Below are positions 1 to 8,041 of a stretch of 24,615 bases of DNA, piece by piece (position 1 is the first letter of the stretch; the number at the start of each line of letters is the position of its first letter). The notes under the pieces are model-generated. The model saw nothing but the letters and a program-made list of their open reading frames with translations. It did not search any database and had not been told where the DNA came from. This DNA is from a virus. Both the position numbers and the translations under genes were made by a program. Where the stretch lies: positions 1 to 24,615 of the IMG/VR virus record IMGVR_UViG_3300030117_000763; one strand, written 5' to 3'.

Positions 1-540
1 GAGGATGGATTCAGCCTCAGTACAGAGTTGTAAAAGTTTTTCACGCATTAGCTCCGTCATGGAGTTTCCAGGCACCTCTATGTCGTCCAAGATCATCAAA
101 TCGGCGCGACTTCCTGTTAGCTGTCCAGTTATTCCCACGCTTTTTACGCTTGGGGCTTGGTGAGGAGAACAGGCTACGTCGAAGCTGATGCGACTCCAAC
201 GTGAATCGTCTTGTTTCGGTCTGAGATGACTGAGCCATGGGGTTTCAATAATTAGTTTTTGTAAGAAGATTGACATGTTATCTGCTCTCTCTTTGGAGGC
301 AGATATGATCATAATTTTTCTTTCTGGATCATTAAAGAGTGTCCATAACACAAAAGCACCAGTAATCCAAGATTTACCAACACCTCGAAAGGCTTGGATC
401 TGTAATCTTTTTGGTCCATGTTGTAAGTAGTCTGCAATAGAGTACTGTGCTCTTGTAGGTGATGGTAGACCAAGCTGATCCCACAGAGCTTGTAGGAACA
501 GCTTAAAGTCGTCTTGTAAGGCTAATAAGGTATTATTCAT
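1..540 (-). CDS. terL: Terminase large subunit, N-terminal 180 residues (partial)
   Basis: This is the ATPase motor that pumps phage DNA into the prohead, equivalent to T7 gp19. Reading down from the ATG at 538-540 gives 180 codons with no stop before the window edge, so the C-terminal nuclease part is missing. Visible motifs are a Walker A, AFRGVGKS (residues 50-57), the T7-type variant with Arg before the P-loop, and a Walker B, DLMILDDIE (residues 147-155), with the catalytic acidic pair. The start ATG overlaps the TAA of the upstream 496-aa gene (TAATG), which suggests coupled translation. Base composition shifts inside the gene: about 52% GC at 61-240 against about 33% at 241-360. Identity is very sure from the motifs and the neighbours. 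Confidence 0.95.
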   Translation of the reverse strand, partial: MNNTLLALQDDFKLFLQALWDQLGLPSPTRAQYSIADYLQHGPKRLQIQAFRGVGKSWITGAFVLWTLFNDPERKIMIISASKERADNMSIFLQKLIIETPWLSHLRPKQDDSRWSRISFDVACSPHQAPSVKSVGITGQLTGSRADLMILDDIEVPGNSMTELMREKLLQLCTEAESIL

Positions 541-2030
541 TAATCACTTCTTCCACTCCAGAATCTACCCCATTTAGAAGCTTCATTAGCTCCATAACCT
601 CTTTCTGTAGTAACTTTAGGAGGCTGAGATAATGCTCTGAATTCTGCTTCAAGTTCTTTTGCAAGTCTTTCATACTTATGCTTTAATTTACTCGTAAGAC
701 TATCATATATACCCATACTTCGTATTTGTTGTAAATATTCTATTGCATTTAAGTTAGTTTGTGCATCCAATTCACGTTGTACTTTTGTAGGTACATAATC
801 CTCTATTTCTACTAATAGATTAGAATATTTATCCCAAAAACTTAGCTCTCTTTCTACAATATCTTTAATTGTTTCTCCAGGTTTCATATTTTGCACAGCA
901 TCCATCATTCCCGTTTTAGCTGATTCTTTAAATCGTTGAGGAACTCTTTCACCTGCAAGCATAAAAGATTCATCTAAACGTCTTCGTACAAAATTCTCTA
1001 AAGTAGTACTCTGACCGATAGCTTCTAATATATCATCAGGTATAGCTGGATTACCAATATCATTTTTTCTTCGATTAAATTCAGAATAAAGTATTTCTAA
1101 ATTCTCATGCATATCAGCTCCTTCTAAACCTAAATCATACATTAGTTCTTTAGCTTTATGATGATCTACTTCAAATGCATGATCAATAGTTTTCTCTGTA
1201 CGACCATCAACTAATGTAGGTTTACCGTCTACTGCTTTTACTTTAGCATTCTTTAATCCATCTGGACCTAAACCTGCAGTAAGCTTTTTAAAATATTTGT
1301 TAAGCCAAGTTCTAGCACTTCTTTGGCTCATATAGTTTTGAAACTTTACTACTTGTTCTTGGAAAATTTCATCTACATCAGCATCGGTTCCTCCAAATTT
1401 ATCTACATATTTTTTAATTTTAGGCTTAGTTACTCTAGCAAAAATATCTTTGTCTGATCCTACAAGCTCAAAATCTGTAGCTCTTTTTTTCTTAGGTATC
1501 TTATCTATATTTTCTTTAAATCCAGTAGCCATACGTTCAGTCTGTTCAGACTTTAAAATAGTACCATCTGGAAGTATTTGATCTCCTTTAATTGATGCTA
1601 AAAGGTTTTTTCTTAAGTTAATTGTAGCTTCATCAAGTTTACCTAAACCTTTTTTAACTATAGGTATTTCTTTTGCTAATTTTAAAGCAGGATATGCAGC
1701 TCCTGCTGCTTTAAGTTCTACTAACTCAGCTTGTAATTCTTGTGGAGTTTTAGGTATAGCTGCATCAATAGCTCTAAGACCTAATGCTCCAATATTACTA
1801 CCCCAATTTAATGGGTTACGCATATCTTCAAATTTCTTAGAATATTCTATAGAACTAATAATTACATTCTTTAGATTCTCTATATGCTCTCTATCTGTTA
1901 TGTTACCAGCTTTGTGAGCTTTACCTGAAGCTTTAATAGCTTTATCTTTAGGAGCATTTTCTATTTTATCTCTTTGTTGCCTTTGTTTAACCCCTAATTC
2001 TTCTATATCTGCTAAATCTAATGGACCCAT
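540..2030 (-). CDS. Packaging-region protein with an HNH-nuclease-like motif (496 aa)
   Basis: I do not recognise this protein as a whole. It is Lys-rich and mostly helical in appearance, with no signal peptide or clear membrane span. Residues 286-324 look like an HNH endonuclease core: VDHH (D289, H290), then ENLEIL with N310 twenty residues later, then FNRRKND with N319 nine residues after N310. The spacing and the N-L-x-x-L...N-R-R-K pattern match the usual HNH fold, without the zinc cysteines. It starts at an ATG five bases from a strong GGGGAGGT site (2035-2042), and its stop overlaps the terL start. HNH proteins next to terminases assist packaging in some phages (HK97 gp74), so a packaging-linked nuclease is a fair inference. 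A structural or ejected protein is the alternative. Confidence 0.6.
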   Translation of the reverse strand: MGPLDLADIEELGVKQRQQRDKIENAPKDKAIKASGKAHKAGNITDREHIENLKNVIISSIEYSKKFEDMRNPLNWGSNIGALGLRAIDAAIPKTPQELQAELVELKAAGAAYPALKLAKEIPIVKKGLGKLDEATINLRKNLLASIKGDQILPDGTILKSEQTERMATGFKENIDKIPKKKRATDFELVGSDKDIFARVTKPKIKKYVDKFGGTDADVDEIFQEQVVKFQNYMSQRSARTWLNKYFKKLTAGLGPDGLKNAKVKAVDGKPTLVDGRTEKTIDHAFEVDHHKAKELMYDLGLEGADMHENLEILYSEFNRRKNDIGNPAIPDDILEAIGQSTTLENFVRRRLDESFMLAGERVPQRFKESAKTGMMDAVQNMKPGETIKDIVERELSFWDKYSNLLVEIEDYVPTKVQRELDAQTNLNAIEYLQQIRSMGIYDSLTSKLKHKYERLAKELEAEFRALSQPPKVTTERGYGANEASKWGRFWSGRSD

Positions 2031-2032
2031 AT

Positions 2033-2296
2033 CTACCTCCCCATGCTAAGTGTTTGAATACCTAACGTATCTCTATTTGGCTTCTCTATCTTGGTATCAA
2101 CAATGTACCTACTACGTGGTTCATCTGGAGCTAATTGTTGATTAGGAGGTGGTGCTGGATTAGGATCCTTACCTTCTTCAGTTAATTCAACTTGTGTCTT
2201 TTCAGGTTGGATTAATAAGTCTTTAAACCAATCAGATTGTTGTATAATACTTAATAATGCTAACCTATTCTTTAAACTAGTTTCTATGTTATCCAT
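2033..2296 (-). CDS. Hypothetical protein, 87 aa, Pro-rich centre
   Basis: I do not recognise this gene. The protein is acidic to neutral, with a predicted helical N-terminus (about residues 1-35, containing NRLALLSIIQQ) and a Pro/Asn-rich linker, NPAPPPNQQ, near residues 46-54. No signal peptide or membrane span is evident. Its ATG at 2294-2296 overlaps the TAA of the upstream basic-protein gene (TAATG). Its TAG stop lies inside the ribosome binding site of the downstream HNH-like gene, so the three are probably translated as a coupled set. Its place between the two terminase subunits hints at a head-assembly or packaging role, but no motif supports this. Confidence 0.7.
   Translation of the reverse strand: MDNIETSLKNRLALLSIIQQSDWFKDLLIQPEKTQVELTEEGKDPNPAPPPNQQLAPDEPRSRYIVDTKIEKPNRDTLGIQTLSMGR
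2035..2042 (-). promoter_or_regulatory. Strong ribosome binding site of the 496-aa gene
   Basis: The minus strand reads GGGGAGGTAGATATG. The GGAGG is five bases from the ATG at 2028-2030. The TAG stop of the preceding 87-aa gene shares the last base of the site, so terminating ribosomes meet it directly. Confidence 0.7.
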
Positions 2297-2565
2297 TATC
2301 TTCTTTTAGCACCTCCTCTTGCACGGTTTTTCTTTACAGACTCTAATGTTAATTTACCTCTTTTATGAGATAAATCCTTTCCACCTTTACCCATAATACC
2401 CCGTCTTCTACGTGCAGCTGCTAATAATCTACGATACTGCCTTTTAGCTGCAGTACTATTAATCTTCTTTTGCTTACGTTTCTGTTTAGCATAAGACTTC
2501 CTACCTTTCTTCGATTGATAATATCTAGAAGTCTTACCTGGGTTCTTAGCCCGTCTTGGAGCCAT
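2296..2565 (-). CDS. Very basic small protein with GKGGKD-x-SH signature (89 aa)
   Basis: About a third of the residues are Lys or Arg, spread along the whole chain, so it almost certainly binds nucleic acid. The C-terminal third has the pattern GKGGKDLSH (residues 59-67), then ES, then KKNRARGG. To me this resembles a small basic phage protein family whose D-x-[SD]-H and N-R-A/S elements look like a shrunken HNH core. The first histidine element is present, and the later Asn elements are reduced. The ATG is four bases from GGAGG (2569-2574). It overlaps the 3' end of terS by 20 nt and the next gene by TAATG. Function is unproven. A packaged DNA-binding protein is the other obvious possibility. 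Confidence 0.75.
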   Translation of the reverse strand: MAPRRAKNPGKTSRYYQSKKGRKSYAKQKRKQKKINSTAAKRQYRRLLAAARRRRGIMGKGGKDLSHKRGKLTLESVKKNRARGGAKRR

Positions 2566-2791
2566 ATAACCTCCGTTGTACTAGTTCAGGATCTACTTTA
2601 GGGAGGATTCTATTGAGTTTATCCATTGGACTGCCTTCATAAGCAACACCTGTGATATCATTAGTTTTTAGCCAATCACATGCTGCTTTTAAGTCTTGGG
2701 TAGAAGCCTCACCACTCTTTACTCTTTTTAGGAATTCATTAGTAACGAGATTATGTAACTCATCAAACTTTTCTTCTTTTGCTTTTGACAT
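2546..2791 (-). CDS. terS: Terminase small subunit (DNA packaging protein A-like, 81 aa)
   Basis: Small terminases of T7-like phages recognise the concatemer DNA and regulate the large subunit. The 81 residues fit the size of T7 gp18 (89 aa). The N-terminal half carries the usual pattern of this family: ELHNLVTNEFLKRVKSGEA (residues 11-29), followed by DLKAACDWLKTND (residues 33-45), two helices joined by a SGEA turn. A short acidic and hydrophobic tail follows. It overlaps the upstream 64-aa gene by 29 nt and the downstream basic-protein gene by 20 nt. Three genes separate it from terL. Assignment rests on the motif pattern and position, without a search. Confidence 0.77.
   Translation of the reverse strand: MSKAKEEKFDELHNLVTNEFLKRVKSGEASTQDLKAACDWLKTNDITGVAYEGSPMDKLNRILPKVDPELVQRRLYGSKTG
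2569..2574 (-). promoter_or_regulatory. Ribosome binding site GGAGGT of the basic-protein gene
   Basis: The minus strand reads GGAGGTTATATG. It lies within the 3' end of terS coding sequence and supports the ATG at 2563-2565 as start of the 89-aa gene. Confidence 0.65.
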
Positions 2792-2957
2792 TCTTTTTAG
2801 CTTTTAGTCGTTTTAAACGTAGTTTGATAAAATCAGGATCATTTTTAATTCCTGATGGTATATCTTTCCAATCTGAAAGAGGAATATTAAATCCAAAACC
2901 TGATTCAGTTAAACTTCTAATATTATTAGCTGCTGCTAATTTAGTTCTGTTTTTCAT
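2763..2957 (-). CDS. Hypothetical basic protein, 64 aa
   Basis: I do not recognise this gene. The protein starts with a Lys/Asn-rich helix (MKNRTKLAAANNIRSL), has a central segment with DWKDIPSGIKNDPDFIKLRL, and ends in a strongly basic tail (KAKKNVKSKRRKV). No membrane span is visible. It overlaps the start of terS by 29 nt and lies directly upstream of it in the same transcript, so it may be a head or packaging accessory protein. The basic tail could bind DNA. Same-strand packing and the lack of any other gene here support it as real. Confidence 0.65.
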   Translation of the reverse strand: MKNRTKLAAANNIRSLTESGFGFNIPLSDWKDIPSGIKNDPDFIKLRLKRLKAKKNVKSKRRKV

Positions 2958-2976
2958 TATAAGTTGTTAAACATAT

Positions 2977-3174
2977 TTATGTTGTATAAGTTTGCTTACC
3001 AATATCAATAACTTCTAAATTACCTAATCCTACTCTAGTAACAGCATCAGGATCTATACCTATAGTAGGTTCTCCTATCTTTACCTGAGGTTGATATTTA
3101 GTAACTTTAGCTGTTTCTGTTGGTTCAGGTTTAACTAATTGTTTAACTGATGTTGTATTCTTTTTTCTAGGCAT
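2977..3174 (-). CDS. Hypothetical protein, 65 aa
   Basis: Function unknown. A GTG at 3181-3183 would add three residues, but I chose the ATG at 3172-3174 because AGGTGG (3180-3185) lies five bases in front of it. The resulting protein begins MPRKKNTTSVKQL and has a Pro/Lys-rich N-terminal half. The C-terminal half looks like short beta strands (VKIGEPTIGIDPDAV, then NLEVIDIG). No signal peptide is present. The start overlaps the last 8 bases of the upstream small gene, which points to coupled translation. It could be a small virion or head-joining component. Nothing decisive is visible. Confidence 0.68.
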   Translation of the reverse strand: MPRKKNTTSVKQLVKPEPTETAKVTKYQPQVKIGEPTIGIDPDAVTRVGLGNLEVIDIGKQTYTT

Positions 3175-3337
3175 CTTTTCCACCTGGGAATAAGTTCTTT
3201 TTAATTAATGCTACTGCCTTATCATCAATGGTATTATCAGTAGACTCAGCATATGCCTCTAGTAGTTGTATAACTAATTCTTTAACTGCAGATGAGCTAA
3301 GAAATGCCATGAGGATGGGTTTAATAAGTACAATCAT
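3167..3337 (-). CDS. Small hypothetical protein, 56 aa
   Basis: A short gene fills the space between the 65-aa gene and the exported-protein gene. From the ATG at 3335-3337 it encodes a hydrophobic N-terminus (MIVLIKPILMAFLSSSAV), an amphipathic helix (KELVIQLLEAYAES), TDNTIDDKAVALIKKNL and a short basic end. The ATG directly follows the TAA of the upstream gene (TAAATG), which fits the coupled style of this operon. A second in-frame ATG at 3308-3310 would give 47 residues. From memory, cyanophages carry similar small proteins with a TDN-x-x-DD-x-AV core, but I know no function. The N-terminus is not a clean membrane span. Confidence 0.7.
   Translation of the reverse strand: MIVLIKPILMAFLSSSAVKELVIQLLEAYAESTDNTIDDKAVALIKKNLFPGGKDA
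3180..3185 (-). promoter_or_regulatory. Ribosome binding site AGGTGG that sets the start at 3174
   Basis: On the minus strand the sequence reads AGGTGGAAAAGATG. The AGGTGG is five bases from the ATG at 3174, while the alternative GTG start overlaps the AGGTGG itself. The site lies inside the 3' end of the upstream small gene. Confidence 0.6.
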
Positions 3338-4219
3338 TTAAAATAATCCGAATTTCTTTTTAGGTGTTTTTGGTGGTTGTGTTTCTTTTAGATATGCAGA
3401 TATTGGTATTACATCAACACACATGTTTGCTACACGGCTACCAGGTCTTAACATAAAACCTTTAGATTGTAGCTCTGCACATTTAAGAGTACGAACAAGC
3501 TCATAGTCAAGTCGCATCTTTTCTTCTTGCCTTGCAGCAATGGAGAGACAACGCTTTAATCCTCTACGATCCAATGGAACCATAAAGTTTATCTGTGCTC
3601 CCCAGTTTTCTGCAACTGTATAATTCTTTTGCTCCATACCTAACTCTTCATCTATATCAAATGGAGTTGTATGATTTCCCATATAGAATGGTGAGAAAGT
3701 CATAGTACTTCCATTACATGAGATGTTAGGTCCGAAGTGCTGTCTAGACGGTGCTCCATTATTTTGGAATTGCACCGCCTGATTGGTCACATTTCCAGTC
3801 GCAGCAGCTACTGGATTACTTACGTTATTATTCTCTTCTTCTGCACGTACTGGTGCTATTGAGAGAAGACTGATAAGGAGACCGTAGTAGACGAGGTATC
3901 TATTTCTCTGTCTATTACTTCGACTGATAGCACCTGACTTGCTGCTCTTGATACCACTTCTAGTGAAAAGGGATCTCCAGCTGTGTGTAAGGTGAATACC
4001 GAATCTGAATCTACAATACCTCCTGATGAGGCTGAAGTATGGGTTATGTTTTCCCCACTCCACTTGTTTAGGGCTGACCCGTATGTAGTAGTCGTTATCT
4101 CTTCGACTATTTCTTGAGTTGTAGTTGTTGTACTGTTCATCGAACCCTGGGTGAAGTTTGGGGTTACTAATTCTGCTCTCGCTACCGTGGGTGATGCCAG
4201 TAAGAAGAGTAAAAGCCAT
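3338..4219 (-). CDS. Exported cyanophage-type protein; start uncertain, overlaps the upstream gene
   Basis: The C-terminal 167 residues look like a real exported protein. A basic stretch and a hydrophobic core (residues 97-126: SRSNRQRNR, then YLVYYGLLISLLSIAP, then VRA before E127) form a plausible signal peptide. The mature part contains NPVAAATGNVTNQAVQFQNN and four cysteines (168, 224, 247, 267), which would suit two disulfides outside the cytoplasm. I recognise the mature part as a conserved cyanophage type of unknown function. No ATG, GTG or TTG lies near the signal peptide. The only in-frame ATG is at 4217-4219, and a GTG is at 4061-4063. Residues 1-96 overprint the preceding gene and look like out-of-frame translation. 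Start site and N-terminus are therefore unresolved. Confidence 0.65.
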   Translation of the reverse strand: MAFTLLTGITHGSESRISNPKLHPGFDEQYNNYNSRNSRRDNDYYIRVSPKQVEWGKHNPYFSLIRRYCRFRFGIHLTHSWRSLFTRSGIKSSKSGAISRSNRQRNRYLVYYGLLISLLSIAPVRAEEENNNVSNPVAAATGNVTNQAVQFQNNGAPSRQHFGPNISCNGSTMTFSPFYMGNHTTPFDIDEELGMEQKNYTVAENWGAQINFMVPLDRRGLKRCLSIAARQEEKMRLDYELVRTLKCAELQSKGFMLRPGSRVANMCVDVIPISAYLKETQPPKTPKKKFGLF

Positions 4220-4227
4220 TTCTTCAT
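3856..4227 (-). CDS. Exported cyanophage-type protein with Thr-rich body (123 aa)
   Basis: A clear signal peptide opens the protein: MKK, the hydrophobic core WLLLFLLASP, then TVARA before the mature end at E19. The mature part begins LVTPNFTQGSMNS, continues with a Thr run and EIVEEITTTTYGS, and ends LSVFSQ. I recognise this as a small secreted protein type common in cyanophages, of unknown function. It may be virion-associated or act in the host periplasm. Its ATG overlaps the TAA of the holin-like gene (TAATG). Its last 364 nt are also open in the frame of the next gene. It has no lipobox, so it does not look like the lipoprotein half of a spanin. Confidence 0.78.
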   Translation of the reverse strand: MKKWLLLFLLASPTVARAELVTPNFTQGSMNSTTTTTQEIVEEITTTTYGSALNKWSGENITHTSASSGGIVDSDSVFTLHTAGDPFSLEVVSRAASQVLSVEVIDREIDTSSTTVSLSVFSQ

Positions 4228-5365: not shown

Positions 5366-8041
5366 TTAAGCTTGCGTTGCACTAAAGGTATCGTAAAAAG
5401 AATCACCACTACCAGCTCGATAAGCTCCAAGTGTGATTTCTACAATCCCCGCAGCCGTAGGAGTGAAATTTGCAGATATTTGTTGCCACGTATCAGCCGA
5501 AGCGGTTATATACGTTGATGAACCTGCAACACCTATTAATCCATTTGCTTTGATATGAAGCCCTGGGAAAACATTTGTACTTGACCTTCTTACATAAACT
5601 GAAACTGTTACTTGACTACCTCCATTAACAGCGATTTTACCGATTGGAAATTCTTCGGGTGTTGTGCTTAGTGTCCCTAAAGAAGAATTAAGTTCTTGTT
5701 TCCAAGCTGTTCCACTGCCAGATTGGGTAGTTGTTGTTTCTTTTATTACAGAGCTTTTTTCATATAAAGTTCTTATGTCACCAGCAGTTCCATCGTAATC
5801 AGAGACTTCAATACTTCCTGCATTACTGGTTGAATACATCGTTCCTGAATGAGTAAAAGTTAGATCATGTGTCCTTACTTTTCCTGAGTTTTGAAATGAC
5901 ATCTGACCGTAACATTCAGAATCGCCGTTTACTCCGATAACCGTATAGTCACCACTCGAACCACAACGAGCAAATGTTGTTCCTATATTTCCACAACTTT
6001 TGTTGGTGTTGATTGAACCATCTCCGTTCAACCAAACAGTATGTAATATTTTGTTAATAGTACTACCACCTGAATCATCAAAGGCATAACCACTGCCTGC
6101 ATGTTTGCCGTGGTAGCTAGTATTTATTGTGACTTTCCCTCCGCCAGTAGTAAAGAAGTCTGCTCCAGTGGATCCGCTACCTGTATCACCAACATAACCA
6201 CCATAGAAATTATGTATATATAATTTGGAATTGCTCAATACATTTAATCCCCTATTAGACGCACCCCTAACGTCTAATTCTTCAAAGGTTAAATCACAAT
6301 TACTTTGACATTGAATACTAGGGTATTGATGCGATCCTCCAGTAGATTTTATTATAAAATCTGCTCTAGTTGCAGAATTACTTGTTGTAGTAGTATTAAA
6401 GTATATACCAACCTCTTGAATACTACCAGCAGAATGTAATTTAGCTTTAAGCATATTTTTACAGCCAGTAAAGTAATAATTAGGACCACGATCTTCCGAG
6501 TTATAAGTATCTGTTATTGATAGATAATCTGCAGAATTAAAATAATGACCGTAATAAAATCTTATTGCTGATATTTTACTTATGCTTACATAATCAGTAG
6601 ATTGTACTTTAACAAGGGAATGCTTCCATACTTGACCATCTATAAATGTTTCACCCGTTTGAGATGACATTGCAGTTGTATCCCAACCACCTGAGACATT
6701 AATAGGATCACTACTTGTGCCATTAGTATTACTATTAAAGTAAATCAGTCCAGTACTAAGACCTTGCGTAGTATCTGCTTCTCTTCGACCAACTAAATAC
6801 ATAGGTTGTCTAACATATAGCGTAGCTGAACTACTTGCTGCACCTCTAAAAAATCCCCATCCTGAGTAATAACTTGCGTACCATCTTCTTTCTACATTAT
6901 TACAAATTTGAAGTAAAATATAATTCCCTCTTATTAAACCTACGGAATACCAATAAGGATCTGCTGTTGTTTGTAATCCAACAACTGAATTATAAGTTAA
7001 ACAATCAGCGACATCTTTGGATTTAGAAGCAATTACGCTTGTTAAATAATAAGTACAATCTTGGTTATTAGCATCTTGAGTATCAACATATAAGGCTACT
7101 GATTGAATAGCAGATCCTAAAGCTGAACCTTTGTTATATGTAATTGGGGTGTAACCAGTATTCCAACTATTTTGATTATTACTTGTAACATCGAAAGCAG
7201 TTGTTGTATCAACTGGCGTATCTCCAGAGGTATCACTACATAAACATAATTTTATATTCCCTCCTTTTTCTGGAGAACCTGAGTGCTGTCGCCATATAAC
7301 TGATATTTGTTGATAAGCAGAAAGATCAGTCGAAGAATCTAACTGAAAATGAGCAAGTTTTGTTCCAGCCGTTGCATCACCATCGACTACAAATTTATGA
7401 GCAACAGGAGGATATAAAACATCTAAATTACCACTCCAAGCACTCTGATTAGTTTGACTTTCTTGTGTATATGTGCAATTACTTCCGTTAACTGTCCAAG
7501 ATGGAACAACATTTCCTGAATAGTCAGAGTCATTACCACCAACTAATAATTTTGTAATGTTAGATGTATTTAATTCAAATACATTACTGGACATTATTTT
7601 ATATTTAGCTCCTGAAATACTTCCGCTACTTGGTCCTACGTATCCATCAAGTTTAAACTTACTACTATCAACTACCGTTACCTTCCACAACCCATTAATT
7701 CTGTGTGTAGATAAACTTGTCTCATTAGAAATAAAAACAAAATCACCTGTTACTAATCTGTGATTTGTTCTTAAAAATACACTTTCTCCTGCTGTTGTAC
7801 TAAATGTATCTAAACCTATTGTTGCTGGATAATAACTACTATCTTGGTTTTTATCACTAACAATACAAGTTCCTAATGATGTTGGATCTGAACTTTTCTT
7901 AACTCTTATCTCATCTCCTGCTGCGTAACTACTGCGGATAGTTGAGTTAGCACTATCCATTCCTGAAGCTCTATTAGCAAAGCTAGAGCCTGTTCCATCT
8001 CCTGCTTCCCCTTCGGGATCAACATAAAAAATATTTGGCAT
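5366..8041 (-). CDS. Fibre or appendage protein, probable beta-helix (891 aa)
   Basis: The protein is rich in Ser, Gly, Thr, Asn and Tyr, with few charged helices, which is typical of phage adhesins. The N-terminus (NIFYVDPEGEAGDGTGSSF, then a GDEIRVKKS strand) resembles the opening of right-handed beta-helix proteins. The middle has many short strand-turn units. The last 129 residues (about 763-891) look like a separate beta-sandwich, possibly carbohydrate-binding: GKIAVNGGSQVTVSVYVRR, then ADTWQQISANFTPTAAGIVE. The ATG is preceded by GGAGGT (8050-8055). I infer host-surface binding or decoration. No catalytic motif was seen, and the exact family is unknown to me. Confidence 0.78.
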   Translation of the reverse strand: MPNIFYVDPEGEAGDGTGSSFANRASGMDSANSTIRSSYAAGDEIRVKKSSDPTSLGTCIVSDKNQDSSYYPATIGLDTFSTTAGESVFLRTNHRLVTGDFVFISNETSLSTHRINGLWKVTVVDSSKFKLDGYVGPSSGSISGAKYKIMSSNVFELNTSNITKLLVGGNDSDYSGNVVPSWTVNGSNCTYTQESQTNQSAWSGNLDVLYPPVAHKFVVDGDATAGTKLAHFQLDSSTDLSAYQQISVIWRQHSGSPEKGGNIKLCLCSDTSGDTPVDTTTAFDVTSNNQNSWNTGYTPITYNKGSALGSAIQSVALYVDTQDANNQDCTYYLTSVIASKSKDVADCLTYNSVVGLQTTADPYWYSVGLIRGNYILLQICNNVERRWYASYYSGWGFFRGAASSSATLYVRQPMYLVGRREADTTQGLSTGLIYFNSNTNGTSSDPINVSGGWDTTAMSSQTGETFIDGQVWKHSLVKVQSTDYVSISKISAIRFYYGHYFNSADYLSITDTYNSEDRGPNYYFTGCKNMLKAKLHSAGSIQEVGIYFNTTTTSNSATRADFIIKSTGGSHQYPSIQCQSNCDLTFEELDVRGASNRGLNVLSNSKLYIHNFYGGYVGDTGSGSTGADFFTTGGGKVTINTSYHGKHAGSGYAFDDSGGSTINKILHTVWLNGDGSINTNKSCGNIGTTFARCGSSGDYTVIGVNGDSECYGQMSFQNSGKVRTHDLTFTHSGTMYSTSNAGSIEVSDYDGTAGDIRTLYEKSSVIKETTTTQSGSGTAWKQELNSSLGTLSTTPEEFPIGKIAVNGGSQVTVSVYVRRSSTNVFPGLHIKANGLIGVAGSSTYITASADTWQQISANFTPTAAGIVEITLGAYRAGSGDSFYDTFSATQA

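Follow-up and report, generated by a model that had tools for sequence, protein, structure and literature searches.

HK97 is a tailed phage of the cos type whose gp74 protein is small and conserved. This HNH protein has been described as acting together with the terminase (PMC9410871). In the podovirus P-SSP7, two proteins are annotated in the slot between the terminase genes terS and terL, namely PSSP7_050 (uncharacterised, 568 aa) and PSSP7_049 (a small HNH protein, 110 aa). Cyanopodoviruses, which are among the abundant phages of the ocean, are regarded as sharing a conserved core. The protein considered here is the large protein that occupies the same slot in an IMG/VR fragment of a marine cyanobacterial virus; it is referred to as X, and the name is also used for its counterparts in other loci, which are denoted by their locus ids (L001, L002 and so on).

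X of this fragment is comparable to the described systems in some respects and departs from each of them in others. Like PSSP7_050, in which an HNH-like "FDIGHFIP...N...NRSKG" stretch is found, it carries an HNH-like core, although no similarity between the two proteins was detectable. Unlike HK97 gp74, X is 496 aa in length, modular and hypervariable, and it is not conserved together with TerL. With its constant N-terminal module and its exchanged, nuclease-like modules, X resembles the polymorphic toxins of bacteria and the MuF-type polymorphic toxins of phages, and many X variants, again like polymorphic toxins, carry HH...GNxxxNL...H cores and Gly/Ala-rich hydrophobic segments. Unlike polymorphic toxins, X has neither a co-varying immunity gene nor a known trafficking domain, and its gene belongs to the terminase operon of lytic phages. 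The HNH core and the turnover between conserved flanks are shared with the free-standing HNH homing endonucleases of phages, from which X differs in that its slot is nearly always filled and in that the protein is large and composed of several modules.

Organization of the locus

The window, that is, the whole stretch of DNA analysed, is an IMG/VR virus fragment of 24.6 kb (24,615 nucleotides), and its genes, on the minus strand, follow the order of T7-like cyanophages. On the terS side, its DNA matches cultured podoviruses of Prochlorococcus and Synechococcus with 60-80% identity. The gene terS, for the terminase small subunit, was located at 2546-2791 (minus strand; PF11123, E 1.4e-16; phrog_891). 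Two ORFs separate it from X: one for an 89-aa basic, gp50-like protein (2296-2565, minus strand; phrog_6437), whose position after terS is usually conserved, and an 87-aa orphan ORF immediately upstream of X (2033-2296, minus strand), which was otherwise found only in L001. X was confirmed as an ORF at 540-2030 on the minus strand and encodes a 496-aa modular protein with an HNH-like core. It lies directly before terL, and the stop codon of X and the start codon of terL share one base (TAATG). The gene terL, for the large subunit, is cut off by the window edge and is represented by its N-terminal 180 aa (1-540, minus strand; phrog_38, E 2e-50). The window has no small HNH gene; of that gene and the large protein, only the latter was present in the terS-terL slot.

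Farther along the window, overlapping frames at 3338-4219 and 3856-4227 (both on the minus strand) are both open over about 370 bases. One encodes a 123-aa protein that looks secreted (phrog_650); the other is a 293-aa ORF (phrog_848/1755), whose signal-peptide-like stretch falls within the two-frame overlap. The same double-open arrangement was observed in L002, L003 and L004.

The HNH-like core of X in the window

An HNH-nuclease-like core had been assigned by the sequence-only reading to positions 1059-1166, a segment that codes on the minus strand and is meaningless when read on the plus strand. The core was delimited here as residues 286-324 (1059-1175, minus strand), containing F286, E287, D289, H290, N310, L311, N319 and K322. 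Its spacing was confirmed as that reading had given it: D289-H290 is followed by N310 (+20) and N319 (+9). K322 is present as well (+12), and the residues stand in the canonical HNH arrangement with N-L-x7-N-x2-K. The pattern [DEHG]H-x(12,30)-N-[LIVMFY]-x(7)-[HN]-x(2)-[KR], written from general knowledge of HNH proteins, was taken as canonical, and it occurred in 0.385% of 20,000 shuffles of X of the window; none of 159 control ORFs contained it.

The core alignment consisted of nine rows, the window and eight IMG/VR relatives. F286, E287, D289, H290, A293, N310, L311, N319 and K322 were invariant in all nine, and these include H290, N310 and N319, the three residues whose invariance had been in question. 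Identity of L114, L115, L116, L040 and L126 to the window was approximately 39-52% over the core and 30-40% over the module. In the more distant relatives L002 and L005, the His and the Asn were kept at equivalent places in a G-H...S-N-M context.

Neither X of the window nor the relatives of its core gave an HNH profile match in Pfam (PF01844, PF13392 and PF13395 included), PHROG or NCBIfam, and profile and sequence searches of the PDB with X of the window and the core alignments gave no match. Profile comparison was done by hhalign with a permutation test on three profile groups. The comparison of the window core with the canonical HNH group of X proteins was not significant (10 of 100 permuted profiles scored as high), and only a small DHFN group stood out (1 of 100). 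The pLDDT of the AlphaFold2 models was 56.7 for full-length X and 58.6 for the core only. The core was modelled as helices with no beta-beta-alpha hairpin, but its pLDDT was only about 34-64 and mostly below 50 in both models; a Foldseek search with this low-confidence core model gave no match. Judged by its residue pattern, the core of X in the window is probably a nuclease.

Modules of X and their relatives

The N-terminal module of X in the window (residues 1-175; 1506-2030, minus strand) is common to L001, L002, L003, L004, L005 and L009, and it is joined to other C-terminal halves in L002, L003, L004/L005 and L009. The nuclease-like C-terminal module (residues 190-496; 543-1463, minus strand) is common to L001, L112-L117/L040 and L126, and it stands behind unrelated N-termini in L112, L114, L115, L116, L040/L117 and L126. 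The homologues were found in uncultured IMG/VR contigs only. No relative of X of the window was detected by tblastn in 50,697 phage records, cultured phages included, and no relative of the nuclease-like module was detected by a pattern scan of 84,980 bacterial and archaeal genomes.

The DNA of the window and that of L001 are 100% identical at codons 74-118 and 344-388, and mostly 68-87% identical from codon 179 to codon 283, a drop that extends to third positions and silent sites. Since identity drops at silent sites as well, between identical flanks, the core region appears to have been swapped between the two by recombination. In the TerL tree, L005 and L033 are the nearest neighbours of the window, yet they carry different X proteins.

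No match for a recognised delivery or trafficking domain was obtained for the N-terminal module in Pfam, PHROG or NCBIfam. Transmembrane delivery of X in the window was considered and is not claimed, as its best 19-residue hydropathy was only 0.75, under the 0.90 of TerL.

HNH-like signatures in other X proteins

The X set contained 130 distinct proteins from the fetched terL loci, from which identical X proteins had been removed. The canonical HNH spacing was found in 16 of these, against 0.33 expected from shuffles (maximum 3 in 200), the loci behind this and the other X counts not being phylogenetically independent. A looser HNH motif was derived from the first 94 X proteins and then tried out of sample on 32 unseen ones, of which 13 carried it, against 0.9 expected. 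Proteins of the canonical DHxxPxxxGG...NLxxL...N...K type were S-RIP2 (L016), L020, L070, L074, L098 and L182. An HH...G[ND]xxxNL...H type was represented, for example, by L046, L101, L135, L138 and L171, and a GH type by L158, L181 and L183.

Matches to PHROG endonuclease VII/HNH profiles, in register, were obtained for X of S-RIP2 (AGG91344; 3.4e-5) and of L070 (2.7e-5), both scanned singly. The profile phrog_1035 (HNH/endonuclease VII) matched six members of the X set (best 1.7e-7), and a match to an IscB-type profile (1.2e-6) was also found among the X proteins other than that of the window. The comparison of the canonical X group with the small HNH family by hhalign gave 84%. On these motifs and matches, several unrelated X cores bear independent HNH-like signatures. 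A recognisable HNH motif was absent from many members of the X set in the motif scan.

Gly/Ala-rich hydrophobic stretches were present in many X proteins; X of the window shows them only weakly, and many others are clearly more hydrophobic. The hydrophobic C-terminal part of X in P-SSP7 (L008, residues 444-542) is similar to a segment of phrog_38472 (E 9.8e-10), a 1175-aa PHROG annotated as endolysin, which hints at a module common with virion-type proteins. A short motif, G-E-[IM]-[FL]-x-P-D-[ST]-[IL]-D, was found in the otherwise differing N-termini of X in L033, L039 and L046; it may be a docking or membrane element that they have in common.

The same observations bear on a reading in which structural reasons account for the conservation of D-H/N/N/K, the core of X in the window is no nuclease and X is a variable virion or assembly protein. 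This would agree with the missing profile and fold support for the window core and with the many X proteins that have no HNH signature. The exact HNH spacing, the invariance of all key residues at about 30% module identity and the repeated occurrence of HNH signatures in unrelated cores of the same slot make it unlikely.

The terS-terL slot across cyanopodoviruses

In P-SSP7 and most cyanopodoviruses, the genes are arranged as terS, a basic protein of about 90 aa, a small HNH protein (about 109 aa), a large unannotated protein and terL. Neither an HNH gene nor a large protein is new in the terS-terL slot; both are ordinary for T7-like cyanophages. The sequence-only reading had regarded a large HNH protein at this place as undescribed. 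As to the place, this is contradicted by the annotated small HNH protein and large protein of P-SSP7; what appears to hold is the novelty of a hypervariable, modular, nuclease-like locus between terS and terL, of which no description was found in the open-access papers searched.

A slot ORF of at least 150 aa was present in 117 of the 121 loci having both terS and terL, a count that includes some contigs fetched under two locus ids, and empty alleles were rare. For pairs with 90-95% identical TerL, X was homologous in 18% and the 90-aa protein in 66%; the figure was 68% for the gene upstream of terS, and 100% for terS and for the small HNH. Even at 95-99% TerL identity, X was homologous in only 48% of the pairs. 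Of the 289 homologous X pairs, 34 were related over the full length and 255 only in part, through the N-terminal part in 123 cases and the C-terminal part in 112, and 89 of the 130 X proteins form one network via their shared parts. A psbA gene (photosystem II D1) was observed within the slot of L088, between X and terL.

These data were weighed against the possibility that X assists TerL as an accessory nuclease in packaging or maturation, in the manner of HK97 gp74; it would cut concatemers or trim termini, and its large size would reflect fused docking domains. In HK97, the HNH protein gp74 was reported to promote TerL cutting at cos (PMC9410871), and X is fixed directly beside terL, the stop and start codons sometimes overlapping. 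Loci that lack the small HNH also have an HNH-like X more often (Fisher p 0.0007), an association that is clade-clustered. Replacement of the small HNH by X is not claimed, since the labels are clustered in the TerL tree and both proteins occur together in many phages. The conserved small HNH is in fact already present in most loci, and in 17 loci of the TerL tree it stands alongside an HNH-like X. TerL and TerS are well conserved, whereas X is mostly non-homologous between close relatives, which makes a conserved docking partner unlikely; phages with 95% identical TerL would be expected to keep the same TerL partner, and the packaging role is counted less probable on this ground. In P-SSP10 (L025), a transaldolase gene occupies the slot before terL (2858-3523 of that locus), and a 573-aa X-like protein with 39% identity to X of L045 lies on the far side, just past terL (5450-7171). 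The X-like protein of P-SSP10 stays near terL, and its exact position is not kept. The HK97-like stimulation of the terminase, as proposed earlier for the protein of the window, fits the small conserved HNH better than the hypervariable X, for which a packaging function has a low probability.

X as a candidate conflict nuclease

X is tentatively read here as a polymorphic, modular nuclease of the HNH/His-Me-finger type that is used in conflict, and not as a conserved packaging cofactor. Provided that X is a nuclease, a role in conflict rather than in packaging is probable. In X, the terminase operon of T7-like cyanophages would encode a modular nuclease that diversifies fast. The core of X would cut DNA, with H290 as the base, D289 and N319 at the metal and N310 in a structural role. 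The protein would be made late together with TerL, or be packaged and injected, and it would cut either host DNA or that of rival phages sharing the host. The diversity of X would come from this conflict; diversification of this kind is what one expects of a weapon aimed at changing rivals or hosts.

No co-varying immunity gene was found at the locus; the 89-aa neighbour is mostly conserved and the 87-aa neighbour is not tied to the module. A toxin-immunity pair of X with the 87-aa ORF was rejected because the ORF does not follow the module, being absent before X of L112. An immunity gene may not be needed, as a lytic phage may have to protect only DNA that is already packaged when the late proteins appear. 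The stronger proposal, that the slot as a whole is a polymorphic nuclease weapon system with mix-and-match delivery modules, varied HNH-type cores and no immunity genes, is doubtful.

A real but improbable alternative is a free-standing homing or exclusion endonuclease, which would cut the slot of coinfecting phages and be copied in by repair, leaving a slot that is always filled with a content that turns over and with mosaics from partial gene conversion: the turnover between conserved flanks, the mosaic core swap bounded by identical DNA (window and L001) and the general use of HNH as a common homing-endonuclease family speak for it, but empty alleles are rare (117 of 121 filled) when homing elements are usually patchy, and X is large, with a conserved N-terminal module and Gly/Ala-rich hydrophobic modules that homing does not need.

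Under the conflict-nuclease reading, the turnover of mix-and-match HNH-bearing proteins in the slot looks like an arms race, and to our knowledge an arms-race-like nuclease slot beside terL has been described by nobody. If this reading is true, dozens of "hypothetical proteins" encoded beside terL would become candidate nucleases, and the exchange of a nuclease-like slot in the terminase operon, even among near-identical phages, would be a sign of strong conflict of cyanopodoviruses with other phages or with their hosts, a conflict about which little is known in these phages.
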